Assembly: GCA_006384855.1 (NCBI GenBank)
Contig: VCJN01001422.1
Coordinates: forward strand, 1-64,000
Length of the DNA: 64,000 nt
From: Tetraselmis striata
Taxonomy: Eukaryota > Chlorophyta > Chlorodendrophyceae > Chlorodendrales > Chlorodendraceae
Direction: 5' to 3'
Shown: positions 3,844-56,745 of the stretch, one piece after another
How positions within the stretch are numbered: position 1 is the first letter of the stretch
How the letters are laid out: each line of letters starts with the position of its first letter
The notes under the pieces: generated by a model
The model's database searches: none
The model's input: the letters and a program-made list of their open reading frames with translations, nothing else
Told to the model about the DNA's origin: nothing
Position numbers and translations under genes: made by a program

Positions 3844-4669
3844 TGTTACAGCCCCCTTAGGACTTAGGCCGAATAGTCGTCTAGCCATAGATTAGTCCTA
3901 AAGCAGGAGCTGAGTCGAGGGCCCATTGGATCGTTATTCCACACGGCCAGGAATAATGAGCCGAGATTTGGGAAAAGGGATTCTTACAGTACCGGAAGCC
4001 GGTAACCTGGGTGACTGGCCCGGCGGTGGTTTTGCCGGCCTATTTATAGTCGTTGGTTTTCGTCATTCCGTGCGCTGTGTACCGATCCAATTTCCGCCAC
4101 TTGTGCTGCGTGTAACTACTAGACTCATACTAAAATCGACGTGTCCGGTCCTAATCCGCGGCCCGTCGCTATTTTAGTCATACACTACTAAATACAGACA
4201 CGGTTCCTAGCACCTTCGTCTGTCCGCAGCACAGCGGTTATTATATTTCTCTACTATTGCTATAGCAAATGCTATAGCGTTCTAGATGGTTCTAGTAGGT
4301 TCTAGTACCTACTACTAACACTCCACTAAGGCAGCGCTCCATCTCACGCTTTTGGTATCATCATCCTCTAACAGGTGACACCATAGCGTACGACAATCGC
4401 CGCTGCTGGTACGCAGGTACATACAGGTTACTCGCACCCCATGTGGGTACTCGTAATACTGTCCTGCACTACTAGTCGCCTTGTAGTCGCTCGTACTGAC
4501 GCCTCGTCGTCCTCGTACCAGTACTTCGCCTTCACTTGTACTCGCACTCGCAATGCTCATACTCGTACTTCGCTTGGCTTGTACTCGTTCTCGTCCGCCT
4601 CAGTCGCCATTTCTTCGCTCCTTCGTCGGCTCCCGCAGTACTAAGTACAGCAGTGTAGGGTACATAACA
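3844..4669 (+). repeat. 3' LTR, 826 bp
   Basis: It is collinear with 1245-2058 at an offset of 2,611 bp and carries the same ORF shadows. It starts TGTTACAGCC and ends TACATAACA. Near its start is a small hairpin, TTAGGACT and AGTCCTAA, about 30 bases apart (3857-3901). A TATA-like CTATTTATAG lies near 4040. It is the only unrearranged copy, so it defines the LTR ends. Confidence 0.8.
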
Positions 4670-14509: not shown

Positions 14510-16030
14510 TTTTTTTTCCGCCCCCGGGACAGAAATGGCAGTGAAACCTTTGCAGCGTCTCTACGACGGCCGTTTAGGCAGCAATCCAGTTACGGAAATT
14601 CCTGGGTAGGCCACGCTCCGTTATAGTCATCAAGCAAATTGCCGAAGCATTCTGCAAGACTAATTAGAGGCCAGTGACGGAATATCCAACACTTTTGGAT
14701 CGCCGTCTAAAACACTGCCATGAAAATACCCAGCACTTACCACGAAAGGTCCGCCCTACCCGTTTGGGCGTCGGCCCATTCGAGTAATGCGAGTTGGGCA
14801 GGCAAGCATTTCGGGAGCAAAGCATTTCGGGAGTACGATACATGTGCAACAAAGAAGGCAATGTGAGGGAGGGCCCGACGCCATAGCTGGGAAAAATCCC
14901 ATTCCCAGTAAAATCCAGGGCGCCGTGAAGGGAGGGGGGGACCCCGCCCAAAATAAAGGCAGTTAAGTCCTCGGGTGCTGACGCAATAACCTGACTACTA
15001 ATAGAATCCGTGAACTCCGGAACTAACAACCCAAAACTATGACGGTGATACCCCCACCGCGGGCACTCCACCAACATATGTTCGATAGTCTCAGATTCAC
15101 CTCCGCCACATGCAGGGCAGTCTTCCATGAACCGCTCAGGCATGGCATGAATCCGGGCCAATCGGCGGGCAGTGGGAATTACTCGGGTGCGTAATTGTAT
15201 CATCATGTGCAGCCCGGCCACAACCCCTGCGGGGACACCCACACCGTACTATGGCAACGGGTTTGACGCATAGGACGCCTGGACATATATACCCCAGGTT
15301 GCGTGCCGACGATTCATAAATATCTGGAGTATAACGATGCCGGCGATTCGTAACGCGCCCACACCGATGCTTTAACTAGTTTAACGGCATCGCGCGCGGC
15401 TAGTGACCACCACTCAACTGGAAGGTGCGCCCCCTCAGCTAGCCCTACGTTCGCCCTAGCTAGTCGAGCTATCCGCCCCACAGTCCCCGACGTCCACGTG
15501 TTAGGGCGCGCCCGACTTCGCTGATCTACTAAATGGGTTATGCATGTATTCAAGTCGGATGCTTTAAGGAACGCCCGAGCCCGGCCGCAGCGGTCGTAGC
15601 CTCTATTGACGCAATATTTAACTCATGATGCACCGATGCACCGAGCCCGGCCGCATCATCGGTGCAGTGGCCACCCCATGGGAGTTTTTACCCACCCCAA
15701 TGAGGCACCGCAAGCACTGATTGAGTACGGTTTGTAATTTATTCGCGCCGCTAGTTCTATCCATGCCCCATACTTCACACCAGTAAGTTAAAACCGGCAG
15801 TACACACTCAGGCCATAAAGGCAGACATACGCACATTTATAGGAATTATGTCCCGCCCACCGACTAATAGTTACCGAATCGAGCGCCTCAATGGCGCGCT
15901 TACCCTTCTTAACCCGGTCGCCTACTATGTGTTGCATACCTAAATCCGACTTAATGAACTTACTCAAATACCTATATTCATTTACAACCGGTGCCCGTTG
16001 CCCCCCAAGCTGCCATCGGGCAGCTTATTC
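14510..16030 (-). pseudogene. 5'-truncated LINE (non-LTR retrotransposon) ORF2 remnant
   Basis: On the minus strand the order is an RT-thumb-like segment at about 16027-15850 (NEYRYLSKFIKSDLGMQH), then 15836-15618 with VLTYWCEVWG and KLQTVLNQCLRCLIGVGK, then 15553-15314, then 15242-14664, which carries the C-terminal zinc knuckle CPACGGGESETIEHMLVECP (C-x2-C, H-x4-C). These are hallmarks of the region after the polymerase core in LINE ORF2. Frame changes and stops separate the blocks and the catalytic RT motifs are absent. A run of nine A on the minus strand at about 14510-14518 may be the remnant poly(A) tail. Its upstream end stops next to the 16060 inverted repeat. Confidence 0.8.
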
Positions 16031-16059
16031 GCGTAACGCGGTCTCGTCGGAATATCGGC

Positions 16060-16090
16060 CAACAGTAATTTAACCCATTTTGCGCCGTGG
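16060..16090 (+). repeat. Left terminal inverted repeat
   Basis: Reads CAACAGTAATTTAACCCATT and continues TTGCGCCGTGG; it pairs with the complement of 28290-28320 at 27 of 31 positions. Similarity weakens inward, though both ends then share a TAGGGTTTG word. Confidence 0.6.
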
Positions 16091-16258
16091 AATTCATTTT
16101 GCACCGTAGGGTTTGTCTATACCCTAGTTCCCGGGTTATACTATCACTACTTAAGACTCACTGGTGATGTAGCTTGGGTTTGTAGACCTTGGGTGCAGTG
16201 CAGCATTCCACAGCATGAAGGCCAGCCGCGACGCATATCCAATGTTGGTTTTGGAGCA

Positions 16259-16277
16259 TTTTGTCCAAAATGGGACA
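16259..16277. promoter_or_regulatory. Subterminal TTTTGTCC...GGGACAA motif
   Basis: An imperfect inverted pair, TTTTGTCC then GGGACAA, downstream of gene A's stop and 170 bp inside the left end. It matches the palindromes at 16931 and 16981 and those near the right end, so it may be a protein-binding site of the element. Confidence 0.4.
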
Positions 16278-16329
16278 AGATGAGGCAATGAAATCAATAT
16301 TTATTATGATTATTACATCCAGCGGCTAG

Positions 16330-19300
16330 CTAGCCACAAGACGTTGCTGATAGTTTATTCGTTGAGCATCCCCAACTCAAGCAAGTCCTTCTTCGTGGCT
16401 GCATTAAACTTGACGACTCCGCCGGGTTTGCGTTGCGCTGGGGTGGTTGACATGACGTGGACGCAGTTGTTTCGTGGCTGGCTGATTTGCCACCAGTTTG
16501 CGCATATGTCTTCACGACTTGGACGCTTTTACCGTACCACTTCTTTCTGACCATGGTGCCGTCCTCGTTGAACACCTCTCGACTTCCCGACGCGTCGTGG
16601 ATGGCCTTCGCGTACGATAGGGGGACGGCTTCAACAAGCTTCCAAGGAAGCGTCAGGCACTTCTCCCAGCTTGTGTCAACTGGCTTCTTCCCTCCTTTTG
16701 TCTGCGCGTACAACCATAGGGGCATAAGGGGTTTGCCCTTTGCATCGGCATGGAAGGGCTCGTATACGGCCACGGTCAACGTGTCTTCGGTAGTCTCGCG
16801 CGACTTCACAAGCCCGATGACGAATCTCGACTCCCAATCACCAAGAGTTTCAGGACACTTGTCTTCCTCATGCACCTAACGATGACCAAGACCGCGAGCT
16901 ATGTTAGTCCCGAGCGACACGCCACGCCATTTTTGTCCCAGCTGGGACAAAATAACAAGCAAGGTAGAAGAACCAAATTGTTTTGTCCCGTAAAGGACAA
17001 AAATGACAAACAATGGGACTCACATCGGAGACGTCGATGACAACGAGGTTCGAGCCCTTTGCATCGCTGGGCGATGTGTTGTCATGAAGCCTCTCCTTGG
17101 CGCCGGCGTGAACTCCCCGGAAGGCGCTGTCATCTTGAAGCACTTGAGCATGAACCTCGGCTTCCACGCGAGCGGCTTCGGCATTGTTGAGGTCTGCGTT
17201 GGTAGCCATCGTGTGACGTGCCTCAGCAGGCGCGGTCTGCCCGTGCTCGCGCAAGAAGTCGTCAACTTCCTCTTTCCGTTGCGGCCAGAACCCGGAGAAA
17301 GCTGCCGAAGGAGCAGTTTGCATCTCATCCAAGTCGTCGAGCAGATTCTTCCAGCTCTCGCGCTCGACTGGGGAGAAGTGCCACTGGACCGCCAGGTCCG
17401 TGATGTACGACCTGACCTTCTTGAAATCATCCAAGTACCTCTGGACCTTCACCGCGTCGGGCTTCTTTTTGTCGCAGAGAGCGTACAAAAGGGGCCTGCC
17501 CGCACGAATCTCGGGCGTCCCAGTTGGCGCGCTCTTCAAGATCTGCACGGGCTCCGAAAGCGGTGTGTTGGACCACAAGGCGGTGCGCAACGAGCCGCCA
17601 GACGCGGCGGCGTCGTCACGGGTGAACTCGAATTTGTGCGGCTTACTGATGTCCTGAATGTGGTCTTGGAAATGGGGCCTTAACCACTCAGAGAAGTCGA
17701 GGGAGAATGAGAGCTCAGCAATCTCCGGAGTGGGCGAGAATGCCTTCGCCACCAAGTCAAGAAAGGCCTCGATTGTGTAGGCGGAGCTGCGAGATAGCGC
17801 AAGACTGATGCGGCTGAAGATCTGGTCAACCCGTTCGTGAGTGTGCCCGACAGGCAAGAAGACCAAATGAATGACGTCGCAGATGCCGATAGACACAAGC
17901 CAATTGCAGAGGGCCGCCACGTTCCTATTCTTGTTCTCCCTGACGGTGTTGTCCATCTGGATTCTGATGTACGGAATCTTTCTACCACGGTGTTGAATTT
18001 CCTGCATCGCAGACAAGCTTTCATCAGTCCATGGCTACCGGACAACCACGGCGAACCTATCGGGAGGCTAACGAGCTCACCTTCATGATCGTGATCCATA
18101 TCAGAGTGCACGTCGTGGACGAATCGTGGGGGATGGTGTTGGTGTAGTAGTAGATGTCGTCCGGGCGGTATCCGTCGTACTTCACACAGGTGAGGTGGTA
18201 CTTGAGGAGCATGTCGGGCTTCACAGTCTTGGGGATGCGAACCCAGTGAGGCAGCAGGGTCTTCGCGGAGTCCATGCTATCAATTTCGAAGAAGAAGAAG
18301 TTTCCATGGCCAAGGCGCGACTGGAAGACGGCGTTGTTCAGATCCCTTCGTTCCTGGCGCACTCTCTCGAGGTGTACCTTCTGCTCAGCTCTGACCTGAC
18401 GCCTCACCAGCTGCTGATGTTGACGGTGCACTTGACGTTCCTCTGGCGTCATGTCCTTTGTGCAAATCTCGCGAGCTTGGTCTCTGAGTGCTTTGCCCGC
18501 CGCGCATATGGGACAGTGGCTGAATCGCTTCACCTTCGGCGTGGTGACATCCGGGAAGTCTTCCTTCCAAGTCCGGCGGAAAGTGTCGAACGATGCGAGC
18601 TTCACTTCGCTCTCGGTAGCCAAATCTACAAAGGGGCAGGGGCGTGATATGTCGGTATACAAATAAGGTCTCATAATGCGAGACAGAAAAGTTCGGTCTG
18701 AAGTGGGTCGAAATAATTATATCGGTAGTGGGTGAATAATTCTGTAATCAGCATGGCGAAACAATCTGTCAACAGTGTGACGAAACGGTATGTCAGTAGT
18801 GGGACAAAACCGTATCTCAGCAGTGGGACAAGACGTTCTCTCTGCAGTGGGACGATATCGGCTAATTATGTGGGACAAATACTTTTGCGGTCGGTGGGAC
18901 GAAACGGTATGCCATGAGCGGTGCGAAACGTTCTGTCATCAGTGGGACGAAATCGGTCCGGCGTCGGTGGGACTAAACGTTCTGGCGATAGCGGGACGAA
19001 ACGTTCTGTCATCAGTGGGACAAAACGGTTTGTCATCAGCGGGACAAAACGGTTTGTCATCAGTGGGACGAAACGGTTCGTCATCAGCGGGACAAAACGG
19101 TCTGTCAGCAGCGGGACAAAACGGTTTGTCATCAGTGGGACGAAACGGTTTGTCATCAGTGGGACGAAACGGTTTGTCATCAGTGGGACGAAACGGTTTG
19201 TCATCAGTGGGACGAAACGGTTTGTCATCAGTGGGACGAAACGGTTTGTCATCAGTGGGACGAAACGGTTTGTCATCAGTGGGACGAAACGGTTTGTCAT

Positions 19301-20221
19301 CAGTGGGACGAAACGGTTTGTCATCAGCGGGACGAAACGGTCTGTCATCAGCGGGACGAAACGGTATGTCATCAGTGGGACAAAATGGGCCTCACCACGG
19401 AGAATGGCGTTGTCGTCCTCGGCCCACGACTTGTAGTAGTAGTAGACGCAAATCTTGGTCATCCAGGGAGGTAGGTGCTTCTTGAAGGTCTCGCTGTTTC
19501 CGTCATGAAAAGGCATGATCTCGACGTGACCGAGGTCATCCGAGAAGAAGTGCTCGAGAAACATGCGCACATGCTCCCTCGGTCCGGTCTGTCTGCTCTC
19601 GTATTGCTTGCGCTGCCTGATGTACGTGGGTTCGTTATCCACCACCGACCGCTGGATCACGAGACGTCTGTGTTTCGAGACCTGATGCAAGACCTCCCAC
19701 GCACGCCCACACGTGTAGATGGGGCCGCGATGATCGAAAGATCGCAAGTAGCCACCGTGATCGAACATGTAATCGAACTTGTCGGATGCCGACTCGTAGC
19801 CACCCCTGAGAACCTGAGCGAGCCGGTCAAAGGAGCGGTTCTGATTGCCAGAGTATACGGTCAACGCACGGTCCAACACGGCATCAACGAGGGCCTCTCC
19901 GCACTGTGTGTATAGCTTGTGCACGCACTTGCGCGAACAGCATGGCGACTGCTCGCTAGCCTCCTTGGCGAGCATGAGGCGGATACAATCGCGAGAGGTG
20001 CGCTTGCTGATCAGAGACGAGACCTTGCCATTACCGCTTTCGGCGACCTCATCGCAGCCCTTGCCCCACGTGTACTTCCTTTTCTCAGGCTCCTTACGAT
20101 CAGTCGCACGCGCGTCGCAATCACACGAGTATCCACTGCGGCACGAACACAGCGGTAATGTAACTGTAGTGTCCGACGCGCCGGATCCTGGAGAAGAGGC
20201 CATGCTTTCGACCGCCGCCAT
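16330..20221 (-). CDS. DUF7869-type protein (putative transposase/recombinase)
   Basis: Four exons fit with phases conserved: 20221-19396, 18625-18081, 18001-17024 and 16875-16330, about 960 aa. The diagnostic block in exon 3 reads QMDNTVRENKNRNV then FLPVGHTHERVDQIFSRI, which I recognise as the DUF7869 family, multi-copy in algae, plants and invertebrates. A Cys cluster lies near the N-terminus (CSCRSGYSCDCD) and a C-x2-C pair in exon 2 (HCPICAAGK). The conserved D, E and H residues suggest a nuclease-like fold, which is inference. The start at 20221 (MAAVESM) avoids a poly-C tract upstream. Intron 1 (18626-19395) is mostly minisatellite. In exon 4 the frame probably slips near 16500: a better C-terminus (TKKDLLELGMLNE, TAA at 16356-16358) lies in another frame. 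Confidence 0.75.
16931..17002. promoter_or_regulatory. Two GTCC/GGAC palindromes in intron 3 of gene A
   Basis: A perfect 22-bp palindrome, TTTTGTCCCAG plus its complement, lies at 16931-16952. A second, TTTTGTCC-CGTAAA-GGACAAAA, lies at 16981-17002. Both resemble the array unit and the subterminal motifs, so they are candidate binding sites for a dimeric protein. Confidence 0.5.
18730..19390. repeat. 24-bp minisatellite, array 1 (intron 1 of gene A)
   Basis: About 27 units. The part from about 18996 is regular (unit GTTTGTCATCAGTGGGACGA then AACG); the part before is degenerate, still with CAGTGGGAC spacing. The array occupies most of a 770-bp intron and is antisense to gene A. The unit is a multiple of three with no stop in most frames, giving long meaningless ORFs with RFVPLMTN or SVGRNGLS repeats. 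Confidence 0.92.
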
Positions 20222-20766
20222 GCAGCGCGGGGCGAGTGGGTGGGGGGGGGGGGGGGGGGGGGAGGACTGTGATCTGTGGTGAGGAAGAGTGACGGCCGAT
20301 GACCGTTCTCGGACGGGCCGTTGACCGGGGTGCATAATATCCAGGTACGGGTCAAAATAATTGATGACTCAAATACCGTGCTATTTCGTGCTTCTTTCGT
20401 ATGTCGGAAATAGTTCTATACTAGTAAGTACACCCGAATCCAATCCAAGGAATATATCATCCCATGAAGGAATATTATTGCCACGCCACTGTACTCTCGT
20501 ACCGTTATGACTCTCGAGTAGGGAATATTTTATCTTCCAGTAATAGTAATATATAGTCGCAGTAGTTAGCCCTGTATATTCGTCGCGGTGCAAAATACAT
20601 GAACCTGATGACGACGACGAGGTACACTATAGTGTGCGCACGCGCGCCGTTGGTCCAGCAGGGGTCAGAGCGGCGGCAGACGGAAACCACGTCATTTCCA
20701 CCTCTCCCTCACCGCTTCCCACCAAGAAACACGCTCATCTACCGCGTCAACCTACCTACCGCCAGA
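20222..20766. promoter_or_regulatory. Divergent intergenic region between genes A and B
   Basis: A 545-bp gap separates the two start codons and must hold both promoters. A 21-base G tract at 20242-20262 is C on the gene A transcript side. AT-rich sequence at 20340-20600 is the likely core-promoter zone, but I see no decisive TATA box. Confidence 0.45.
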
Positions 20767-23700
20767 ATGGCGCCGAAGAAGAACGAGCCTGCCAAGGACA
20801 AGGAAGACAAGGACGACGCCACCCCAGGTGAGTTGCGCGCGCGTACAGTAGCTGCCTGCCTGCTCGACGCGTGATACGGCCAGATCTAGCGAGTTCGGTT
20901 AGGGTTCACTGTAGAAGCGGTGTAATCTAGGACCACTCGAGGTGTAGGCAGACGAGTGGCAGCGTACAGTAGCCGCCTGCCTGCTCGACGCGTGATGCGG
21001 CCAGATCTAGCGAGTTCGGTTAGGGTTCCCTGTAGAAGCGGTGTAATCTAGGACCGCTCGAGGTGTAGGCAGACGAGTGGGAATATAAACACAAACGAGA
21101 CGAGCGGCATCAGGGTCCTGCATGGTAGTATTACGTCCCGTCGAGGCAGCTGTTGCAAGCAGTAAGGATGCTAATTGGTGGTGGGAGGGGGTGGGGGTGA
21201 AGAGCGGCCAGGGGGAACCTCTGCCTGTACTCCGCCGTAAGGAGTGGTTTAATATTAGTGTGAAGCGCAGTACTTACAGACATTACATTATTAAACCGCA
21301 GTACATAATGTATTGAAAATAGTTTTGTCATCAGTGGGACAAAACGGTTTGTCATCAGTGGGACGAAACGGTTTGTCATCAGTGGGACGAAACGGTCTGT
21401 CATCAGCGGGACGAAACGGTCTGTCATCAGTGGGACGAAACGGTTTGTCATCAGTGGGACGAAACGGTTTGTCATCAGTGGGACGAAACGGTTTGTCATC
21501 AGTGGGACGAAACGGTTTGTCATCAGTGGGACGAAACGGTTTGTCATCAGTGGGACGAAACGGTTTGTCATCAGTGGGACGAAACGGTTTGTCATCAGTG
21601 GGACGAAACGGTTTGTCATCAGTGGGACGAAACGGTTTGTCATCAGTGGGACGAAACGGTTTGTCATCAGTGGGACGAAACGGTTTGTCATCAGTGGGAC
21701 GAAACGGTTTGTCATCAGCGGGACGAAACGGTTTGTCATCAGCGGGACGAAACGTTCTGTCATCAGTGGGACGAAACGGTTTGTCATCAGTGGGACGAAA
21801 CGGTTCGTCATCAGTGGGACGAAACGGTCTGACAGGATATGATATTTTTAGGTCGAAGGTCCAAGCGGACATCAAAACCTACCGAGAAAGCAAAAGAATT
21901 CGATGCGCTCGGAGCGCTAGTCGGGAGAAAACACAAGGCGTCATCTTCTGTGCCCGAGCAGCCGGCGGCGAAGAAGAGCCGTGCAGCCTCAGCTTCTGCA
22001 GCTGGAGCCGGCGCTGAGGCATCAGGTAACCCCTGGAAACCGAGCCTTTTAGGAGGTAGGGTGCCGGCTTACGGCACGCACTCGCAAGGAGAAAGATCGG
22101 CCGCCTTGCTTTTGAGGGCCCGAATCAAGAGCGGACAAGTCCTCTCAGATGCTCAAATGCAGACAGCGCGAAGGCTAATCGATTACGAAAAACTCATGCA
22201 AGCTTACTATCAATCAGGTCCTTGCCTCTCCAATCATATAATTTTTGTGAGTGCACTGTGTCATATTGACATTGGTTGAAATCATGTGTGTTGACAGGTT
22301 CGAAAGGACGCGCACATGAGCCAGTAGCGACTAAAGCTTCAAAGGAATCCAAGGGAAAAGAAAAAGTTTCAGAAACGATTGTGACTCCAGGTAATTGTGA
22401 CTGAAAGTATCAATCCCTGCCTTTGTGAGTGCACTGTGTCATATTTACATTGTTTGAAATCATGTGTGTTGACAGGTTCGAAAGGAAGCGCACATGAGCC
22501 AGTAGCGACTCAAGCTTCAAAGGAATCCAAGGGAAAAGAAAAGGTTTCAGAGACGATTGTGACGCCAGGTAATTGTGACTTAAAGTATCAATCCCTGCCT
22601 TCTCACTCCCTTCGATTACTTTCTCGTCAATGAGTTATCTGACGTTCCAACAGGTCGTAAATTGGCGCAGGCAACCGCGTCGGAAGCAGCTGGTAGATCG
22701 GGATCCCCAGGTAAGAAAAATTACGCTTGGCTATGATGGTGTATGGCGATACCGTTCAGTAGTTAATCGTGACGCCCACTGCAGGTGTGTTGAGTACTCT
22801 CTACTCATTCTTTACAGGTTCCCCAAATCAAGGCTCTTCTTTGTCTAAAGGCCCATCTCAAGTACCGGAAACAGAGCCTGAGCCTGAAATAGAGCACACT
22901 GAGCCGGAGCCGGAGCCCGAGCCGGCGCCTGAAACAGAGCCCACTCAGATGGAGCCGGAGCCCGAGCCGGAGCCCGAGCCCACTCGGCTTGACCCGGCGC
23001 CAGAGGCCGAGCCCGAGACTCCAGCGCCGACTACCGGGCAAGCGTCTGGTTCTGGAGCCTCTGGTTCTCGAGCCCCTGTTGCCGAGGCTCCGAGAAGGGT
23101 TCCTGAATTCCTCAGTATGTGCACGGATGAAGAGGTCTTCGGCACAGAGGAAGAACAGAGGCAACGGGCGGCAGAGAAGCGAAAGCAAGCTCTCGACATC
23201 ACCGGCACTCCTGGACCCGAGAGGAAGACAAAGCTGATGACGGTCGCCTCTTACGACGACTTCTTTGACGAGAGGGACGGGTCCCAAGAAAATGACTCCT
23301 ACAGCGACTTTACCTCAAGGAGCTGGACTATCCACTGGTTCAAGAACGCAAGTGCTGAGGTAGAGATCTATTTGTACATCGAATTGCACAAGGCGAGCCT
23401 GCTGACTGGCAAGGACTTTTTCGATGATCCGAAGGGGCCACTTCTCGCGTGTATCGGAAAGATCAAGGACGTCGAGCTGGACTCGGCCGGAAACTACGAG
23501 GTGAGTAAAGCTTACATGATGTCTGAATTCGTGTCAATGTCGTGTTTTAATAAGTATTAATATTGTTATGCTTGTTACCGCAGATCTCCCTTGAACCTTA
23601 TCGCTTGACAGTGCACAAGGAGTTCAGGATCGATGTCAGCTTTGAGAGGTTGCTACTCCACGCGATCCAGCCGCCACTCTCCTTCCAGCCGCGGTTCCAG

Positions 23701-26700
23701 TCTTACTACGCATGGACTTTGGTCGAGCGCAATGTGCTGGCGCAGGCGCTGACAGGTTTCGCGTCTGGTCAGATTGACATCGATGACTTGGCCAACATTG
23801 ACAAGGATTTTAAGAACGCGCTTCCATACGTCAACACGTTGGCCGTCCCGCCGGCCTTGAATGGCTTCAACAACACCGGTGCCGTCGACTGGATCTCTTA
23901 CGGCCACCTCAGAGTCGAGATTGCTGATCCAGAGGTGAAGACATCTCACGGTGGCGACATCAACATGTTATACGCCGACAGAGTCAACCTCGTGGTCAAC
24001 AAGGATACGGGGCTGCCTTACATTTTCAGCTTCATATCCGATAAGTTCGTCGCTCCGCCGCCGGAATTTGAATTCCGTTCCCCAAAGCTGCAAGACTGCA
24101 ATATGGTGGCGCAAAGCTACAAGGTAAAAGCCTATCGCGACCTGTTGTACCTATCCGGATCAGATATGTGTAGTTACATATAAATCAATACACGATGCAA
24201 CTTACTGACATCCATTTCTTGCATTTGTTATTCAGAGAAATCCTTCCCTGTCCGCCGAGAATTTCTCGGTGTCCTTTCCAGTAGTCCCTAAACAAGGTTT
24301 TTTCTCCGATGAGTACGAGCCCCTCGCTCAGACCATGGCCAACTTCAAGGAGCTAGTCGCAGCAGACGAAGGCGGGGAGAACCCGAGGTTGGCGGATTCA
24401 AGTTCCTACAAGCCAGAGATCGACGTCATCGTCGAGTTTCTTGGCGCCCACGGCGCGCGTCAAGCCAACATCGACGGCAGCCACAGACGGGAGGCGAAGC
24501 GCATGGTGAAAGAAAACTACCCGGAAATCTACAACGCCAACAAAGGCATCCACCTCACGTCGACTAAGATGTACATCGGCCTCTCGCCGGAAGTCTGCCG
24601 CTACATGTCTATGAAGCTCAACGAGGCAGGTCACACCGTCGTGGGAGACACGTCGATGCACAAACTCCTGGTGAGTGACCCATTCTCCCAAATTACTATT
24701 TAGCTAACCGTGGCAGCAAATAGGCGTAAAGTGTGACAAAAGTCGTTAGCGGGTTAAAAATATGTGACAGAACGTGGGACGAAACGGTTTGTCATCAGCG
24801 GGACGAAACGGTCTGTCATCAGTGGGACGAAACGGTTTGTCATCAGCGGGACGAAACGGTCTGTCATCAGTGGGACGAAACGGTCTGTCATCAGTGGGAC
24901 GAAACGTTTTGTCATCAGTGGGACGAAACGGTCTGTCATCAGTGGGACGAAACGGTTTGTCATCAGTGGGACGAAACGGTTTGTCATCAGTGGGACGAAA
25001 CGGTTTGTCATCAGTGGGACGAAACGTTTTGTCATCAGTGGGACGAAACGGTCTGTCATCAGTGGGACGAACCGTTCTGTCATCAGCGGGACGAAATGTT
25101 CTGTCATCAGCGGGACGAAACGGTTTGTCATCGAGGTACAAGCGTTCGGAATTTTGAAATCGGTGCAATTGTTTCTGCAGAACCTTCGCAGATGTTTCGA
25201 GAGCTGGTATGCAGAACAGGATGCAAATCGCCCCGGCTTTAGGGCACTTCCGCAAATCAGGGTAGTGAAGGAGTTCAAGAAGTCTGAAGTTCTTCAAGTT
25301 GAACTTGAGAAGATCGGCATCAAAGATGAGAAGAGCGGCGAGTTCTCAAATTTGATTGACCTCTGCTCGCGCCCACAACGGTGAGCTGCGTACATGATGA
25401 AAATTTATCGTGTTGTTAATGCTGCTAGATTCTGACAAATGATTTGCGCAGTGTTTTTGAGCCCCTTGAGCAGATTTCTGAAGCCTACCGGCACGTGGAC
25501 CTCGGGGTTCGAGGATGGGACGAAGCCAGAACCAAACTCGGAGACCTATTGGTGTACTACGAGCAAGAACTCGATAGAGTCAAGCGCCTCAATTACGGCA
25601 GGCAACTCACCCAGAAGGAAGTGAGCAAGGTTTACGAAGCAATTCGGAAGCCTATCAATACAATCCTCGATAACAAGAAGTACGGCTTCGGGAAAGACAG
25701 AGCTCACTTCCGAGTCGCCCTCATGGAGGTAAGTTGTGACCGACCCCAGTGTCTTAATCATATGGAATACTATCATTGATTCCTTTCTCCGTACTGAAGT
25801 TTGTTTTTCGACCCAGGATGTCGGCTTTGGACCCCATGCGCCCTGGCTAGACGAGCCGTCTCTTGCCAAGCAGAGCGACAGCGCGGATCTCCCTGTGGGC
25901 CAGATGTACCTGGTGGTTGGACTGCTCATCCAAGGCGAGCACAGTGTGACCCCGAGCCTCTACGAGCTGGTGGATGACATAAAGCATGCCGGCAACAATG
26001 GCCCCATGGCTGTTACGCACACCAACGCGGAGTGGCTCGCGATGATTGAGACCTGGCGGTTTCGCGATCTCTTGCGTCGAGCAAGCATCAAGCTCATGAA
26101 TGCTATTGGCACGGCAAAGGGACACGGACAGGAACTCCAACTGCTGACGCCGGACGAACCGGCCAGGAACTGGGGGAAATATCTCTCGGACCACATCATC
26201 GAAATGGATGTGGATGACAAAGTGTCGGATGAGCAAGCGGCCGCTCGCCTTGACGCCATCACCAAGTTCCGAGCCAAGGTTGATGACCTCGGCCCAACAG
26301 GCTTCCCAAGAAAGTTCCAGGATTTGTTCAAAGGTGCTCATCGCTCCGGTCCTTTGATGGTCTTGCTGACCCCTCCTGCCAGATGGGGGGACATGAAATC
26401 CGCCGATTGTCTCACACCACTACCGGTTCGAGAGCATATCGCGGCCACCAACACCACCATCAGGAGTGAGGCGTATCGCATCAAGAATCAGATGCCGGAC
26501 TTGGTCATCTCCTTCTTCACAGAGTTTGCTCTTCTGGCATGTGCGCCGGAGCTTATCGCGGTTTCCGCTCCGAATGTTTCTAATGAGCTGTGGATATCGA
26601 TGAAGGTAACTAAGATCTTGTGCAACCACAAATGCTCTTCTGAATTTTCGTTGTGAGCTATTAACCCGAATCTGTTTTCTAATACACACAGGCCGAGAAA

Positions 26701-27973
26701 CTTCCGGTGATGCCCAAGGGCCATGAGGTCGACAAGGATGAGGAGGTGTGGTTGAACACGGAGCTTTGCAAGACTTGCATTGTGGAGGGGAACTTCAAGG
26801 CTCCCGCGACAAAACAATTCGTCGCGGACGCCATGTCGGCAGTTCGTGCCAAAAAGGCAACAGTCTTCATTGCCGACGCGCTTTTCGGAGCTGGTTCGCA
26901 CACATGGGACTCGAAGGATGCTGCGTGGGGTACGGACGACTTCAACGACGTGTTTGCTTTCGCCAGGCAAGACAACCCCCACAACCCCGGTGCGTACTAG
27001 ATGACTGTGCTTTCATTTATCTCATTCCCGATTTACCCCCGCGCAGGCAGTTGAATATCCTGACTGGATCTTCTGACGTCCACACTGCTCTCGATGGGTG
27101 CCATTTCTTCATTCACCTCTCGGACCAGCAACTTGGATCCGCAATCACAGCCGTTCAAAAACAAGCTGAGGACCTCATCTATCACGTCCTGACTTGGGCC
27201 AAGGATTGCGGGATGAAGATGGGCAGCTCTCTGCGTCACGACGCTGAGTACTACCTCTACGTCAGGAAGCCCCCGCCAAGCATCATAGCTGACAACATCC
27301 GTTTCAATGATCCCCGAAGGTGAGATTTGATCCGTGGAAAATAGCCGGCTTGTATATTCTACTCGCTAAGCCGGTTGTGCCTTTCCAGGTTCTCTACATC
27401 CATCATGTTGGGTCACTTCAAAGACAGTTCGAAATTGAAGGACGAGAACAGACAGACGGTGAACAAGTACCAAAAGCCTATCGCTCTCTTCGCCAAGCAC
27501 CTTAAGATGGCGGCAACAGACGGGACAACAATCGTCGACGTCACAGCCGGAACCGGGACAACCGCGGTGCGTGAGGGGTGCAACCCGGGTGAGTGTCTTA
27601 ATGGGGTCAGCATAAAAAAATTAACGCCTTGTGCGGTTTGCCACGCCTTTTCCAGGTCGCTGCGGCCTTTTCCGTGTGGTGGGACCATATGGATCATAGC
27701 TACTCGTTCACACACAGGAACTTGAAGATGATCCTCATTGACAACCAGAAGACGCAAATCGCTGGGATGAAGTCCAGGATGACCTCATGGTTCAAAGAGA
27801 AGCCATGGGACGAGACTCAAAGACTGCGTCCAAGTGACTTCGAGAAGTGGCCGGGTCTACCCCTTCCAATGACCGAGTTAGAGGAGCGGGAAGAGCGTGC
27901 AGCGGCGGAGAAGAGGAGGCAAGAGGCGGCAGAGCGCCGAGGGGATTATGTGATCGAAGATGATGATATGTAG
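20767..27973 (+). CDS. 1,490-aa protein with beta-class amino-methyltransferase-like C-terminus, catalytic motif degenerate
   Basis: Fifteen exons join in frame: 20767-20827, 21852-22025, 22298-22390, 22476-22568, 22654-22710, 22818-23500, 23584-24123, 24236-24670, 25181-25380, 25452-25728, 25817-26605, 26692-26993, 27047-27319, 27389-27566, 27656-27973. The N-terminus is Lys-rich and disordered; exon 6 encodes a Pro-Glu repeat; the central ~700 aa are unrecognised. The last four exons follow the IV-X-I order of beta-class N6A/N4C methyltransferases: FIADALFG then WDSKDAAWGTDDF (about residue 1194, where DPPY is expected), YQKPIALF (about 1356, motif X), and DVTAGTGTTAVAAA (about 1380, motif I), then MILIDNQKTQ. 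Motif IV has lost both prolines and the Tyr, so catalysis is doubtful while SAM or DNA binding may remain. Motif I is intact only if intron 14 uses the donor GTGCGT at 27567. Confidence 0.78.
20841..21082 (+). repeat. Tandem 121-bp duplication in intron 1 of gene B
   Basis: Two nearly identical units, 20841-20961 and 20962-21082, each with GCCTGCCTGCTCGACGCGTG and CGAGTTCGGTTAGGGTT. They differ at a handful of positions. No function is apparent. Confidence 0.85.
21314..21833. repeat. 24-bp minisatellite, array 2 (intron 1 of gene B)
   Basis: About 22 very homogeneous units of the same repeat as in gene A, in the same genomic orientation and hence sense to gene B. The intron ends just after it at the acceptor TTTTTAG (21851). 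Confidence 0.93.
22298..22568 (+). repeat. Tandem exon duplication (exons 3 and 4 of gene B)
   Basis: Exons 22298-22390 and 22476-22568 are 93 bp each, begin GTTCGAAAGGA and differ at few positions. Flanking intron sequence is duplicated too, for an offset of 178 bp. Both are phase 1-1, so the duplication adds a second ~31-residue Lys/Glu/Ser-rich segment without disturbing the frame. Confidence 0.88.
24776..25133. repeat. 24-bp minisatellite, array 3 (intron 8 of gene B)
   Basis: About 15 units of the same repeat in the same genomic orientation, within the intron from donor 24671 to acceptor 25180. More AAACGTTTTG and AACCGTTCTG variants occur than in array 2. Confidence 0.92.
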
Positions 27974-28013
27974 TACAATTCCGCAAAATTAGCCGCTCAT
28001 ATGTTTTGTCCCG

Positions 28014-28178
28014 GCTTTGACAGAGTTTCAGCCCCGGACGGCACAAACTGCTTGTAGCCATCACGGCCCCCGCACTTCTTTTTGTCCCAGTTTGGACAGA
28101 GTTTCAGCCCCCGATGGCGCAAACTTCTTGTAACCATCCCGTTTCCTTCACTCTTTTGATTTGTCCCTGCTTGGACGG
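28014..28178. promoter_or_regulatory. Three subterminal TTTGTCCC...GGAC motifs, right side
   Basis: Copies at about 28014-28033, 28078-28099 and 28160-28178 share TTTGTCCC then a (T)GGAC half. The first two are followed by AGAGTTTCAGCCCC and CGGCACAAACT/TGGCGCAAACT-like words, so this 3' flank is a loose 65-75-bp tandem repeat. They mirror motifs at the left end. Confidence 0.5.
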
Positions 28179-28289
28179 AATTGGTTTCCCCGACTTGGCA
28201 CAAAATGAACCAACCGGCATTCATATTAGCTTTCAATCCCACAGCTGCCCCCAAACCCTAATTTAGACCTAACCACAATGCACCGCGTG

Positions 28290-28320
28290 CCTCGGGGCAA
28301 AATAGGTTACATTACTGTTG
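28290..28320 (-). repeat. Right terminal inverted repeat
   Basis: Its complement reads CAACAGTAATGTAACCTATT and continues TTGCCCCGAGG, matching 16060-16090 at 27 of 31 positions. Sequence beyond it (AAGCAACTTAAG) does not match the left flank, so no target duplication is evident. Confidence 0.6.
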
Positions 28321-29810: not shown

Positions 29811-30231
29811 CGCTGTGAGCGGTGAAGGGGGGGGGGGGGGGGGCGGCCGAGGTGGAGAAACTAACACCCAGTCGACGACCGCCTTCCGCAGCAGTCAACG
29901 ACACATCGGAGGCGAGGAGCAGCGCGCCACTACTATTTATATGCACGTATTGTCAAGAGCTAGTCGGTGCGGCATTGTGTCGGTGTAATTTCGCAATGTT
30001 TATTGTTGAAGTAGCACGGCGTAATGGATACGGCGAGTGAATCCGGGATAATGTGTGCGACGAATGTGCGCGCGCATCGTTGTGCGGCGGTGTGCGGCGG
30101 TGTGCGGCGGTGTGCACCGATGTTAATATAGTGTGAATATTATATCGGCCGTAGACGATCAGGTCTGGCAGCACCGCCCGTGCTTGTAAATAAGCGACAA
30201 TGGATCTAGTCTCCCGCTAGTCTGTGCACCG

Positions 30232-31750
30232 CCAGTGCACTCCGCAAGCCTCGCCTCCATCCGCGTCGGAACCGGTAGTAAGTGTTGTTGTGTGCGCACA
30301 TCGTGACAACATTACACCGTGGCAATTGCAATTATTAGCGGTGGATAATGTGAAGGCGTTTTCGAAATCGACAGAGAATGAGGCGGTGCTGGCGGAGTGC
30401 ATTGGCGGTGCATAGAATAGCGTGTTGCTGGGGTTTTGGCTGCATCGGACGCCGTATTCCCACCCATCCGGCACGGAATGTCCGGTTTTCACACATTTGT
30501 GTGTTAATAAAGTGTGAATATTACGCGTCTTTTACGCCGGGTGGATGGGCATCCGGCGTCCGATGCACCCCAATTATTTGCAGCACGCTACTCTACGCAC
30601 CCCCAACGCACTCCGCAAGCCTCGCCTCCATCCGCGTCGGAACCGGTAGTAAGTGTTGTTGTGTGCGCACATCGTGACAACATTACACGGTGGCTATTGC
30701 AATTTAGCGGTGGATAATGTGAAGGCGTTTTCGAAATCGACAGAGAATGAGGCGGTGCTGGCGGAGTGCATTGGCGGTGCATAGAATAGCGTGTTGCTGG
30801 GGTTTTGGCTGCATCGGACGCCGTATTCCCACCCATCCGGCACGGAATGTCCGGTTTTCACACATTTGTGTGTTAATAAAGTGTGAATATTACGCGTCTT
30901 TTACGCCGGGTGGATGGGCATCCGGCGTCCGATGCACCCCAATTATTTGCAGCACGCTACTCTACGCACCCCCAACGCACTCCGCAAGCCTCGCCTCCAT
31001 CCGCGTCGGAACCGGTAGTAAGTGTTGTTGTGTGCGCACATCGTGACAACATTACACGGTGGCAATTGCAATTAGCGGTGGATAATGTGAAGGCGTTTTC
31101 GAAATCGACAGAGAATGAGGCGGTGCTGGCGGAGTGCATTGGCGGTGCATAGAATAGCGTGGTGCTGGGGTTTTGGCTGCATCGGACACCGTATTCCCAC
31201 CCATCCGGCACGGAATGTCCGGTTTTCACACATTTGTGTGTTAATAAAGTGTGAATATTACGCGTCTTTTACGCCGGGTGGATGGGCATCCGGCGTCCGA
31301 TGCACCCCAATTATTTGCAGCACGCTACTCTACGCACCCCCAACGCACTCCGCAAGCCTCGCCTCCATCCGCGTCGGAACCGGTAGTAAGTGTTGTTGTG
31401 TGCGCACATCGTGACAACATTACACGGTGGCAATTGCAATTAGCGGTGGATAATGTGAAGGCGTTTTCGAAATCGACAGAGAATGAGGCGGTGCTGGCGG
31501 AGTGCATTGGCGGTGCATAGAATAGCGTGTTGCTGGGGTTTTGGCTGCATCGGACGCCGTATTCCCACCCATCCGGCACGGAATGTCCGGTTTTCACACA
31601 TTTGCGTGTGAATATATATAGTGTGAATATTACGTACGCGTCTTTTACGCTGGGTGGATGGGCATCCGGCGTCCGATGCACCCCGAATCTCACCAACACG
31701 CTACTCTACGCACCCCCAACGCACTCCGCCAGCCCCGCCTCTTTCCGCGC
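30232..31750. repeat. ~368-bp tandem array, about four copies
   Basis: Units begin near CGCACTCCGCAAGCCTCGCC at about 30237, 30607, 30976 and 31344, with a partial fifth at about 31719. Period is 368-371 bp. Each unit holds an internal imperfect inverted repeat of roughly 100 bp: TGCATCGGACGCCG with CCCACCCATCCGG on one side and GGATGGGCATCCGGCGTCCG on the other. The unit can therefore fold into a long hairpin and may be a tandemly amplified MITE. ORFs within repeat every unit and are not genes. Confidence 0.88.
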
Positions 31751-34021: not shown

Positions 34022-36760
34022 TTACATTGGGGCAGGCGCTGGGCAGACAATTGGGGCTCGCTTCAGAGCATTGTCTAGTGCCTATGCGGCTGCGCCGCCT
34101 CCGCCGCATGCAGACTCTCCGGGCTCACCAGCACCGCCACCTCAGTCATGCGGCCCTGCAGCCCGCAGCCCGCCGCCGCCAGCCAGATCAGAGGTATCCA
34201 GAAGCCAGTGCTGGGGTTGTTGCGGCATGACCGCATAGTTTTCAGCGGCTGCCGTCCACAACTTGTAATGCATCCCTTTCCGCCGATTCCGCTGTATGCG
34301 CTGTCTTGGCGCCGCGCTGCCCCGGCCGCCGCGCCTTGGCGCCGCGCTGCCCCGGCCGCCGCGCGTTGGCGCCGCGCTGCCCCGGCCGCCGCGCCTTGGC
34401 GCCGCGCTGCCCCGGCCGCCGCGCCTTGGCGCCGCGCTGCCCCGGCCGCCGCGCCTTGGCGCCGCGCTGCCCCGCCCATCCCACTCGCGTTGGCGCCGCG
34501 CTGCCCCGGCCGCCGCGCCTTGGCGCCGCGCTGCCCCGGCCGCCGCGCCTTGGCGCCGCGCTGCCCCGGCCGCCGCGCGTTGGCGCCGCGCTGCCCCGGC
34601 CGCCGCGCCTTGGCGCCGCGCTGCCCCGGCCGCCGCGCCTTGGCGCCGCGCTGCCCCGGCCGCCGCGCCTTGGCGCCGCGCTGCCCCGGCCGCCGCGCCT
34701 TGGCGCCGCGTTGCCCCGGCCACCGCGCCTTGGCGCCGCGCTGCCCCGGCCGCCGCGCCTTGGCGCCGCGCTGCCCCGCCCATCCCACTCGCGTTGGCGC
34801 CGCGCTGCCCCGGCCGCCGCGCCTTGGCGCCGCGCTGCCCCGGCCGCCGCGCCTTGGCGCCGCGCTGCCCCGGCCGCCGCGCCTTGGCGCCGCGCTGCCC
34901 CGGCCGCCGCGCCTTGGCGCCGCGCTGCCCCGCCCATCCCACTCGCGTTGGCGCCGCGCTGCCCCGGCCGCCGCGCCTTGGCGCCGCGCTGCCCCGGCCG
35001 CCGCGCCTTGGCGCCGCGCTGCCCCGGCCGCCGCGCCTTGGCGCCGCGCTGCCCCGGCCGCCGCGCCTTGGCGCCGCGCTGCCCCGGCCGCCGCGCCTTG
35101 GCGCCGCGCTGCCCCGGCCGCCGCGCCTTGGCGCCGCGCTGGGTATCGAGTCCTCCCCTCCCTAGTGAGCGCGTCCACCTGCGCCTTGCGCTCGGGGCCG
35201 TCCTCCTCCGTCACCACATTCTGCAACCCCCACCGCGTGACGAACCACGCAGCTCCTTGCAGGCGCTTGTACATGTGCCCAAGCACCGCCAGTCGTGACA
35301 CCGAACGCACCACCGCTGGGGACGCGAGCTCCTTCTCGGGCATGATCGCCTTCACCCGGGCCTCCTCGAGGAGCGGACCGGCGTTAAGAATGGAAAACGT
35401 TTCCATGTGGTGCAAGCAGTCCTCCATGACCCAGCCGGGCTGCACCGTCACCTTGCCTGACCCTGCAGTCATGGAGGGGAATGCCGTCACGCCCACGCCC
35501 ACGCCCACGCCCGCGGGGGGGGGGGGGGGGGGGGGGGTTTACCTTTCGATTCTTGGACACTGCAAACGAAGGGCGCAACCCGCGTTCAAAGTTGCTGGGT
35601 ATCGGGACTAAAGCCTGGCGCCGGTCTTCCTGCTTCATAGCTCGGAATCCAATGTGGCCCTTGCACGGTGACAAATTTCCTCCAGAAGTCCCTTCCCAAG
35701 CCAAAAAAAAACAGGTGGAACGGCGCGAGGGGGAAGAGGTTGACCATGCTGACATAGCCCCGGACCACATGCACATGGCACACGCCATGGCAGCCAGTGT
35801 TCTGCTTGGCCTCCGCCAGCCGGGTTGTGTTGACCGCACGCCGGGCAAGGTGCGTGATTCACTGGACAAGTCATCGCCTTCATGGACGGTTACCAAGCGA
35901 GCCTCCCCGTCCGCATCCACAGGGGGGTGCTCCTGGGCAGCCGTCATAGCCTCCACAACCTGCCACGCCGACCGGGCGGGTGCGTGTGATTCCATACAAC
36001 CGCAGTTGAGTGGTGCCACCAGCACGCAGGCCGGGCCCACTCACCTCTGAACGCAGAAGGCCCACAATGCCCCCGTCCTCGAAAACAGCGCGCCACTGGG
36101 TCGCCCCGCCGTAGTCCTCCAACACCCACTCGGTAACGACGCCGGTTATCACGCCGTAGTGCCATACTCCCCGGAACTTCTTGGCGATGACCTTCATGTA
36201 GAAGTCGCCGGGATCGCCTTTCCATATCACGCCCTCATCGCGGGTTCCACGCCCGCCGGCGGCCACGCAGGCGCGTCGATGTCCATACCGTCTTCGCCAA
36301 CGGGGTCCTCCCCCACGCCCATCACATCGTCCACCTTCGAGCCGCCGTCGTCCGAGACCGGCGCCGGCGGGCCGTTTCCGACGGCTGCAGCTACTCCTGC
36401 TGCCGCCCCTGTTGTTGTTGCTGCTGCTGCTGCCGCCCCTGCTGCTGCTGCTGCTTGTGATAAGGCGGCCTTGCGGCGCAACTTAGCCGCACGCTTCAAC
36501 GAGTGGCTACAGTTCGGGAATTTTAGGAAGTGCCGCTCTCGCGCCATCTTATCACAAGTGCCCGTCACGTTGCCCCGGCAGTGCTTGCATGAGTACACGC
36601 CATCCTTCGACACACTCGCTATCCATCCCTTTGCCGGCATGCCTGCTGCCGCGCGCGGGGGGCGGGGGGGGGGGGGGGGGGGTTGAGAGTTGGGGTGGAT
36701 GTAACCCACCACCGGCAGGCAACACAGATGCGAGTGCGCGGCTGTCCGCGCTTGATTCAA
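34022..36760 (-). pseudogene. Decayed BED-finger transposon-like gene, interrupted by minisatellite
   Basis: Minus-strand blocks in order: 36640-36290 with a BED-like finger (YSCKHC ... RERHFLKFPNC) and an Ala/Thr-rich linker; 36240-36042 with a Tudor-like stretch (FYMKVIAKKFRGVWHYGVI, QWRAVFEDG) ending at a GTGAGT donor; 35960-35590 with shifted frames including LFFFGLGRDFWRKFVTVQG; 35470-35170 with PGWVMEDCLHHMETFSI and AVLGHMYKRLQGAAWFV; and a C-terminal relic at 34290-34140 (HWLLDTSDLAGGGGLRAAG). The last block recurs at 51.1-51.4 kb, so this is a repeated family. The finger followed by a large decayed body suggests a DNA transposase, but no catalytic triad can be assigned. Poly-C on this strand (36664-36682, 35515-35537) flanks exons. 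Confidence 0.5.
34305..35140. repeat. 30-bp GC-rich minisatellite with higher-order structure
   Basis: About 28 units of CTTGGCGCCGCGCTGCCCCG plus GCCGCCGCGC. At about 34471, 34771 and 34931 the second half is replaced by CCCATCCCACTCGCG, giving blocks of unequal length. With a unit divisible by three and no stops, it yields 230-490-aa ORFs in at least six frames, none of which is credible as a gene. Confidence 0.95.
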
Positions 36761-36799: not shown

Positions 36800-37917
36800 T
36801 GCGCGTGCTGGGGCGTTACACAATCATCAGCAGTTAGGGCGGCTGCATTAAAACGCGCACCTACGAACACCACCTACCGCCTACCACCTACCGTACCACC
36901 TACATCCGCCCACACCTCCGCCCGTCGTGCCGCACATCGCGGCACACCGCGGGGTCAGCGGTCAGCGATGTGCGGTCAGCGATGTGCGGCGATGTGCAAT
37001 GAGTGCGTACATCCGCCTGTACTTAGCCCGGGTGCTCCGCGTCGGCGGGCGACACGCGAGCCCGCGTGCGCATATCAATTTGATGAAATTATGGAAACGA
37101 GAAATTCATATAGTACTTTACAGGTCGCGCGCGATAGTCGTCGCTACTGGGTATGAAATCAACGTCCCTCGTCCGTCCCGTATCGTCCCCGTATGTCGTC
37201 GTTCGTCACCAGTAGGGCACATTTACGTCACATCTGAATCTCACAGTGCCCGTACATTTTGATGCAAAATCTACGCTGTCTAGCTGCGAAAACTGTAGGG
37301 TTTCCTTGGGAGGAACGACCTAGGAAACCCTGGTTTTCGCAGCGCCGTCAGGGTTAAGTGACGACCCTGCCGGCCCGGTACGCCAGTACCGGCCGGCGCC
37401 GGTCCGGCGCCGCCCTTTAACCGAGTATAAAGGGCGGCCGCGGACCGGGGGCGCCTTCAGTTGTTGGAAGGCACCCGACTATATTGTCTCCCACCCACCC
37501 GCCCGGAGACAATTATTCGCTTGTGTAGTACGTTTCCGGATGCTGCTCGATTTAGAATTAGGGATAGTCTGGTTAGTTGTGAAAGCACCTGAGGTGGGGA
37601 GTGGATATCATTTTGATATACGTCATCCCACAGGGGTGTTGCGTGTCCGATAAGCCCAGGTGTGGCAGCAATTAGTCAGGCTTTCCCAGCATCTTAGCCG
37701 TGATGAGAGGCCGAGAGCAGCATAGCGGAATGTACTGTCCTGATGAGCCACGTAATCGCTGGTGGCATGTAATTTACAAACACCGGCGGGGGCTCGGGAC
37801 GCGCGGCGCCTTTCCGGACACCATCCGGTCTGGCGGCCCCGTACCAGTCGTGGATCTTTCGGTCCCAGCCGACCCCGTACATTTTGATGCAAAATCTACG
37901 CTGTCTAGCTGCGAAAA
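36800..37917. repeat. Mosaic of short repeats and a hairpin
   Basis: A 43-bp direct repeat starting CGTACATTTTGATGCAAAAT lies at 37251-37293 and 37876-37918. A near-perfect hairpin (GCTGCGAAAAC and TAGGGTTTCCT, then AGGAAACCCT and GTTTTCGCAGC) spans 37283-37343. GGATCTTTCGGTCCCAGCC at 37852 also occurs at 28477. Repeated GGTCAGCGATGTGC lies near 36956-36990. No gene is supported. Confidence 0.7.
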
Positions 37918-54866: not shown

Positions 54867-56211
54867 CACCCCTCCACATAAGTCCGGGTTTTGCATTTTC
54901 GATCGCAAAGCGCATGCATGGGCGAGGATCACGCCGGCTGCATGTGCATACATGCTAACTACAGTGGGAATAGTTCGGGCGAACGCCTATTGTGCGCTTT
55001 ATACCCACCCGCGCGACAACACGACCATCTGTGGGCGCCCTTTCAAAAACGCGAAATCATTGCATGGTGCGTTGGCGCCAGAAAGTTGTGGGTTGCGCCA
55101 ACCGTCCAAACCTATGGAAATAGCGGCACTCGTCGCACCAAACTCGGTGGATACGGCCCTTGGCATAAGTTGCACACACCGTGCGTGTAGGCCACTGAAA
55201 GCATGTCGCTGTAGGCACGACGTGACACCCCAACGTCAAGTTGGCCACTGTGGGGAGCAGTTTTGGGGTGAAAATGCTGCTGTTTCTGTGGCGAACGCAC
55301 GTAGGAGAGGCGCTCGATGGCCCCCTTGGCGTAGGGCAATGCTCTACCATGGGGGCGCGTGGTGGAATGCCAGTTGCACCCTTTCGTGGGCGGGGTGGCG
55401 CGGTAGGGGCGTGGATTTTGATTAATATGAAATTCCTTGAAAACTGCTGTGGAAAATGGCATTTTGGCTGGTAGATGTGTGTATCGCTAGGAGGTGGCAC
55501 ATGCCAAGTGTTGGTGGTCCGTGGTCATCCACATACATAACGCTCTCACGCAACTGAGTATGGGGCTTAGACACGCACTTGGCGCAAAGCCACGCGCCCG
55601 ATATGGGTGGGCACATGAGGCAGTGAGGGGCAACTTGGATGATCATCTTTGGGGATTTTTTCCGGAGACCAAAAAAATCGATTTTGTGGTTATGGAAGAG
55701 TGTTCCCGACGCAGAATTGAACGAGGAATCGCGTGATATTTTTTAAAAGTTTTTCTGAGCAAACCCTGAGAAGTTATAGCGTTTTGAAGCCAAGGGGGTG
55801 TTGCTGCGCGTGGCCGACACTGATGGCATGCCAGTATCGCAACGCGACATGCACTGGCCGCCGCCCACACGGCTGCACCCCAACCAAATGCACCCGAGCC
55901 CCTCGCCAATGTGTTTCCTCACGCGTTCATGGCCATCCCGCCGTTTGGTTGTCTATTCACGCGCGTCGGCGTGTGCGTGATACCGACCCCGGTTTTGGTG
56001 CAGTTGCAGGCGACGCCCATCCACGCACCAGGTGCAGCGTGATTCCCTAGTCAAAGGTCATTAAGTTTCGGTTTGAGCCACTCGTCATGCAGGTTTTATA
56101 AAGCCCTCTGAGATTCCAGGGTTTCATCTCATATACCCTACGTTCAGGTACCCTAGACTTGTGAAGTCTTGAGACTGCCGAAAAGGGACCCCAAACTTAT
56201 GTGGAGGGGTG
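54867..56211 (+). mobile_element. 1,345-bp TIR element, copy 1
   Basis: It begins CACCCCTCCACATAAGT and ends ACTTATGTGGAGGGGTG, a perfect 17-bp terminal inverted repeat. ORFs inside (up to about 180 aa, several overlapping frames) show no transposase motif, so it is likely non-autonomous. Outside the left end is TA; outside the right end is TGTTGGCC of the tandem repeat. Confidence 0.85.
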
Positions 56212-56745
56212 TGTTGGCCATGTGTCATTCGGCCATATACGGCCGACGCGGCATGTTTGAATCACCCCAATGCTCCTACTGGCTGCATATGCCCATGATG
56301 CATCCACATGCGAGCCACGGGCTCGAAAGGGCTCACTGTCCCAAGACGCCTTATTGCGACCTCGTCGAGCGCGCTTGGTGCGGCGCACTGTGTTGGCCAT
56401 GTGTCATTCGGCCATATACGGCCGACGCGGCATGTTTGAATCACCCCAATGCTCCTACTGGCTGCATATGCCCATGATGCATCCACATGCGAGCCACGGG
56501 CTCGAAAGGGCTCACTGTCCCAAGACGCCTTATTGCGACCTCGTCGAGCGCGCTTGGTGCGGCGCACAGTGTTGGCCATGTGTCATTCGGCCATATACGG
56601 CCGACGCGGCATGTTTGAATCACCCCAATGCTCCTACTGGCTGCATATGCCCATGATGCATCCACATGCGAGCCACGGGCTCGAAAGGGCTCACTGTCCC
56701 AAGACGCCTTATTGCGACCTCGTCGAGCGCGCTTGGTGCGGCGCA
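56212..56745 (+). repeat. Three tandem copies of a 179-bp repeat
   Basis: Units start at 56212, 56391 and 56570 with TGTTGGCCATGTGTCATTCG and end GCGGCGCAC. They appear identical apart from the last two or three bases (CTG, CAG, CAC). They fill exactly the gap between the two TIR elements. Repeating ORFs in all frames are by-products. Confidence 0.92.

Follow-up and report, generated by a model that had tools for sequence, protein, structure and literature searches.

The window analysed here, a stretch of 64,000 nucleotides from the green alga Tetraselmis striata, contains a pair of inverted repeats with two genes between them, one encoding a DUF7869 protein and the other a methyltransferase-like protein. 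Is this locus a transposon to which both genes belong, as a preliminary description of the sequence proposed, and if so, which of the two proteins would move it and what would the other one do? The first part of the question can be answered directly: positions 16061-28319 of the window are a full-length DNA transposon of T. striata that is bounded by imperfect terminal inverted repeats of 30 bp and carries two spliced genes in divergent orientation, as is shown by its ends, its copies and its insertion sites below.

The inverted repeats detected in the window (16060-16090 and 28290-28320) are 31 nt long and 87% complementary. When copies of the element are compared, the base just outside AACAGTAAT differs among them, so the outer C/G pair is flanking DNA and the true ends lie one base inward, at 16061 and 28319. 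After this correction the element reads AACAGTAAT...ATTACTGTT, and its left (16061-16090, plus strand) and right (28290-28319, minus strand) terminal inverted repeats are 30 bp long and identical at 26 of the 30 positions. The originally described arrangement, inverted repeats that enclose two divergent spliced genes, thus stands with its repeats trimmed from 31 to 30 bp. A search of the 224-Mb assembly (2,903 contigs) for the terminus pattern with at most one mismatch gave 253 forward and 233 reverse matches, 486 altogether, and the backward control gave none; these numbers, together with the target duplications and empty sites described below, rule out a chance inverted repeat. The copies are about 94-99% identical to the window element across long stretches, and the element is a young two-gene DNA transposon. 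Two shorter elements of about 7.1-7.4 kb with the same ends, C200 (L019) and C586 (L020), retain ~1,246 bp from the left side of the full element and 750 bp from its right side, along with minisatellite arrays; the full genes are absent from them, and they are likely non-autonomous relatives.

Do the two genes travel together? We scored the best 150 of 548 candidates in a genome search for DUF7869 and the best 150 of 510 in a search for the second gene with a 79-residue probe, so the counts that follow are lower bounds. At least 83 of the 150 scored DUF7869 matches have a scored methyltransferase-like match within 20 kb, where by our own arithmetic about 4 of 150 would be expected by chance, and in 80 of these 83 neighbouring pairs the genes are divergent, as they are in the window, with a median gap of 9,058 bp. 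Ten regions around divergent second genes were also inspected: four (C1590, C2394, C326 and C687) contain DUF7869 as well, one (C2781) runs to the contig end, and in the stretch read around the other five (C2202, C1855, C341, C1627 and C904) DUF7869 was not found. Some second-gene regions hold pieces that by eye resemble retroelement integrases, and the missing partner may be explained by nested insertion and decay. One JGI model, P0043, has a DUF7869 core fused to a C-terminal methylase-like part; it represents either a derivative of the element that arose by deletion or two genes joined by the gene model. A literature search largely confined to papers outside subscription journals returned no paper naming DUF7869 and, by the titles and opening lines of abstracts listed, none naming this gene pairing.

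Target sites were sought in 37 elements, 30 drawn from the 80 divergent gene pairs and 7 end pairs drawn from 100 terminus places among the matches listed; C67, whose two ends lie on one strand, was left out of the count. Both ends were readable in 34 of the 37 (the exceptions are C1496, C1531 and C1193). An exact 4-bp target duplication, never longer than 4 bp, flanks 27 of these 34 elements, all of them copies other than the window's, and the remaining seven (C1513, C809, C2449, C2669, C58, C2770 and C200) have none. When the flanks of the 27 were joined with a single copy of the duplication and compared with the window and the loci fetched up to then, nine matched another place across the junction; for eight of these nine (8/27) the match is a related empty site that is gap-free at the junction, and the ninth, C1059, has gaps there in all seven spanning matches. 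The termini, the recurring gene pair, the 4-bp duplications and the empty sites together show that the whole element moves as a unit. None of the three results that the preliminary description had named as refuting it was obtained, and a transposon that includes both genes is supported: copies with the same ends exist, the genes adjoin at other loci, and the ends are dispersed as parts of a dispersed element. The 27 duplications vary in sequence and their sites show a weak palindromic target preference, GC-RNNY-GC. Its right side is the stronger one: the two bases right of the duplication are G in 15 and C in 18 of 27 sites, against 9 and 11 of 27 for the G and C of the left side.

No target duplication surrounds the window copy itself (its flanks are GGCC and GAAG). 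The end of its left flank and the start of the right flank of C2669 share one dispersed repeat, with a 4-bp overlap that reads GGCC, and the simplest reading is that two copies have recombined or that the assembly has joined them; the window copy looks recombinant. The dispersed repeat that adjoins its left end (15464-16060) is an unoccupied relative of the C586 target and is cut at its end by the window element. Other dispersed repeats in the window, at 941-1205, 1331-1595, 3942-4206, 36985-37248, 55540-55997 and 57419-57876, are likewise among the unoccupied relatives of other copies' targets.

Which protein would catalyze the movement? The DUF7869 gene lies on the minus strand, and our spliced model of it encodes 964 amino acids in four exons: exon 1 (19396-20221, with a start codon of our choice), exon 2 (18081-18625, with CPIC at 18492-18518 and EIDSMD at 18258-18299), exon 3 (17024-18001, with QMDNTVRENKN at 17924-17965, GHTHERVD at 17810-17860 and a PF25273 match at E 1e-37) and exon 4 (16330-16875, to the stop). 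The first two joins agree with protein P0002, which is spliced differently at its 3' end, and the model's last join is carried by P0029 and P0030; across the region searched, the window protein shares up to 100% identity with JGI T. striata proteins (Tetstr1). In an alignment of nine diverse DUF7869 proteins (two from T. striata, one from the sea urchin Lytechinus pictus and six from ENA/JGI contigs) the invariant columns include C307, C310, D385, D388, D468, K475, H504, H506 and D510 (P0002 numbering). These give invariant aspartates in the order D..D..D plus a GHTH..D motif, an order and spacing from which we infer a resemblance to DDE/D recombinases.

Nei-Gojobori dN/dS values were calculated for the window genes against 14 copies. 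For DUF7869, eight comparisons gave values, seven of them between 0.21 and 0.36 and one, C140, of 1.0 on hardly any differences. For the second gene, all 14 gave values, 12 of them between 0.44 and 0.62, and the two above 1 (C140 at 1.4 and C326 at 2.2 over 311 codons) are based on few differences. Several older copies contain stop codons, up to nine in C2394. Both genes thus look functional, and the second appears to evolve faster. Because of its invariant aspartates, its GHTH..D motif and its low dN/dS, DUF7869 is probably a transposase; the recombinase role first suggested for it remains a prediction, one that fits the conserved acidic residues and the purifying selection. One protein search found DUF7869 in a sea urchin and in ENA/JGI contigs as well as in the green alga, and the wider distribution of the domain rests on it, since a further alignment-based protein search returned T. 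striata proteins only; a Pfam search across 14 control genomes gave a match in none of them. A second, distant DUF7869 lineage is present in the same genome (P0051, TSEL_009554), about 31% identical to the window's.

If DUF7869 is a transposase, does it belong to a superfamily that already has a name? In Pfam scans of the nine members only DUF7869 was significant, with no named transposase family and no integrase core (PF07592 appeared at a non-significant E of 0.064 in one of the nine), and sequence searches of solved structures in the PDB gave a single chance-level match at E 0.28. Pfam includes a KDZ model, and the KDZ transposase domain was absent from these scans, as was any KDZ or TET/JBP match from the proteins scanned. 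AcademX carries an XPG-type nuclease gene, and neither an XPG-type nuclease nor any other nuclease or helicase domain above cut-off was found among the open reading frames and protein models that were scanned. Kolobok and piggyBac elements duplicate TTAA, and none of the 27 duplications here is TTAA.

The remaining comparisons use features of the named groups as given in the papers cited. KDZ (Kyakuja-Dileera-Zisupton) and TET/JBP transposons resemble our element in that a transposase-like gene is accompanied by a second gene with a DNA-modification fold, but that fold is a dioxygenase there and methylase-like here, and KDZ elements make duplications of 7-8 bp (PMC12730594) rather than 4 bp; duplication length and protein family together rule out KDZ membership, and the analogy with KDZ drawn at the outset fails on both counts. 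KolobokP, KolobokH and Kol0 also encode a transposase and one accessory protein on the opposite strand (PMC9587614), but their accessory genes are nucleases, a helicase or KolX. Ginger1 makes 4-bp duplications (PMC10045372) and so does Sola (PMC10741241), as here, but DUF7869 has no named-transposase or integrase-core match at the thresholds scanned, and Ginger ends read TG...CA (PMC10741241) whereas ours read AA...TT. The duplication length of AcademX, 3-4 bp (PMC10045372), fits as well, and it too has an enzyme-fold gene beside the transposase, but this comparison is by description and not by transposase sequence. Among the superfamilies tested, a set that at protein level leaves aside Academ, Sola and other Repbase families, none fits, and the element possibly founds a new superfamily. 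That DUF7869 instead falls within a superfamily named in Repbase, for example as an Academ or Sola relative, and is merely a new lineage of it, is an alternative with a substantial chance of being right, though somewhat below even: the AcademX and Sola duplication lengths speak for it, and the lack of a significant Pfam transposase match and of a nuclease or helicase domain in the material scanned speaks against it.

What might the second protein do? Its gene is spliced and occupies about 20767 to 27970 on the plus strand, with exon joins that are partly estimated. The N-terminal and middle exon blocks (20767-26997, with JGI models P0059-P0069 as part of the evidence) are 20767-20826, 21854-22216, 23105-23530, 23584-24156, 24236-24691, 25820-26614 and 26692-26997, and the C-terminal blocks, with the match to PF01555, are 27150-27317, 27390-27569 and 27656-27970. 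The long N-terminal part has no known family. PF01555 matches the window reading frame 27345-27725 at E 1.7e-4 and three of the four models scanned at E 2.5e-5 or better, the best score (26.2 bits) being below the Pfam cut-off of 26.7; weak methylase matches were also found in NCBIfam, PADLOC and PHROGs. Its relatives are eleven T. striata proteins, and none outside T. striata was found among 8,000 scored candidates. A SAM-type motif I, DVTAGTGTT, is present in the window (27528-27563, within the C-terminal blocks) and in four of the eleven models, the other seven being without that exon. It lies after a presumed motif IV region (IADALFG...W, 26863-26955), an order that, like the C-terminal domain, is shared with the CcrM-like bacterial N6/N4 methylases of PF01555, and from this we infer an N6/N4 methyltransferase fold. 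The catalytic motif IV of N6/N4 DNA methylases is DPPY, or more generally (D/N/S)PP(Y/F/W). At the position expected for it, ADALFG stands in all eleven T. striata models, and this, with the long N-terminal part, sets the protein apart from the CcrM-like enzymes.

This replacement makes it doubtful that the second protein actively methylates DNA, and a role in DNA binding is the likelier one. Of the DNA-recognition or epigenetic partner that had been envisaged, the epigenetic half thus loses ground and the DNA-binding half is favoured. DNA-modifying genes in TET/JBP transposons may protect the element or time its movement, and the second protein could likewise be an active enzyme that methylates the DNA of the element or of the host to either end. 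The repeated though weak methylase matches, the SAM-type motif and the purifying selection are in keeping with such an enzyme, but with ADALFG in place of DPPY in every model we think it unlikely.

We consider it probable, then, that this element is moved by a DDE/D-type DUF7869 transposase with a probably non-catalytic, methyltransferase-fold DNA-binding partner, in the following way. DUF7869 would bind the element ends, free the element and insert it into a target whose two strands are cut with a 4-bp stagger; the second protein, having kept its N6/N4 methyltransferase fold and probably lost catalysis, would recognize the ends, the repeated GGGACRAAA motif (below) or the target; and the same-ended elements of about 7 kb that lack the full genes would be moved in trans. 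More tentatively, DUF7869 might be the catalytic core shared by a eukaryotic transposase superfamily that has no name yet, spread from green alga to sea urchin, and that in Tetraselmis recruited a catalytically dead methyltransferase-fold recognition partner; if true, a base-recognizing domain would have become a subunit of the transposition machinery. Since the element is complete, its ends are defined, its duplication is fixed at 4 bp and empty sites exist, the function of the unexplained DUF7869 domain can be tested directly, and its partner offers a case in which to ask why DNA-modification folds are present in some transposons and whether one of them can serve without catalysis.

Could the roles be reversed, so that the second protein, or both together, would supply recombination and DUF7869 would be accessory? 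Both genes are kept and under selection, and the five divergent second-gene regions in which DUF7869 was not found in the stretch read would suit such a division of labour. The second protein, however, shows a methylase-like domain only, and the scoring of 8,000 candidates turned up no relative of it in other organisms; it is DUF7869 that occurs in other organisms and has the invariant acidic residues, all of which makes the reversal very improbable. An integrated virus or Polinton-like element is barely credible, since, although such elements have inverted repeats, carry a methyltransferase in some cases and are present in Tetraselmis (PMC10120064), no capsid, packaging ATPase or polymerase domain was found in the models scanned and the scanned part of the 92 listed frames and no relatives were confirmed in viral contigs, grounds on which we reject a viral origin, and the duplication is 4 bp and not the 6 bp given for Polinton (PMC10045372).

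The same 24-bp minisatellite is present in introns of both genes, as originally described: one array is in DUF7869 intron 1 (18767-19385), and the other two fall within introns inferred for the second gene, the first intron (21324-21828) and a later one (24774-25132). All 60 occurrences of the core GGGACRAAA in the 64-kb window are inside the element, 55 of them in or within 30 bases of the three arrays and five elsewhere, three on the left side (16931, 16944 and 16981, within 16931-16989) and two on the right (28004 and 28080, within 28004-28088, minus strand). Array sizes vary among copies, the shorter C200 and C586 also carry arrays, and the divergent copy C1590 has single motifs only. A binding or regulatory role of the repeat is possible. 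The third array in one frame matches the ice-binding repeat model PF21300 above cut-off, which we take for an artefact of tandem repetition. The window holds further large tandem repeats, namely a 368-bp unit repeated 4.1 times (30215-31749), a GC-rich 30-bp unit repeated 27.5 times (34305-35141) and a 179-bp unit repeated 3 times (56211-56747), and a minus-strand reading frame at 14664-15248 resembles, by eye, the C-terminal end of a non-LTR retroelement.
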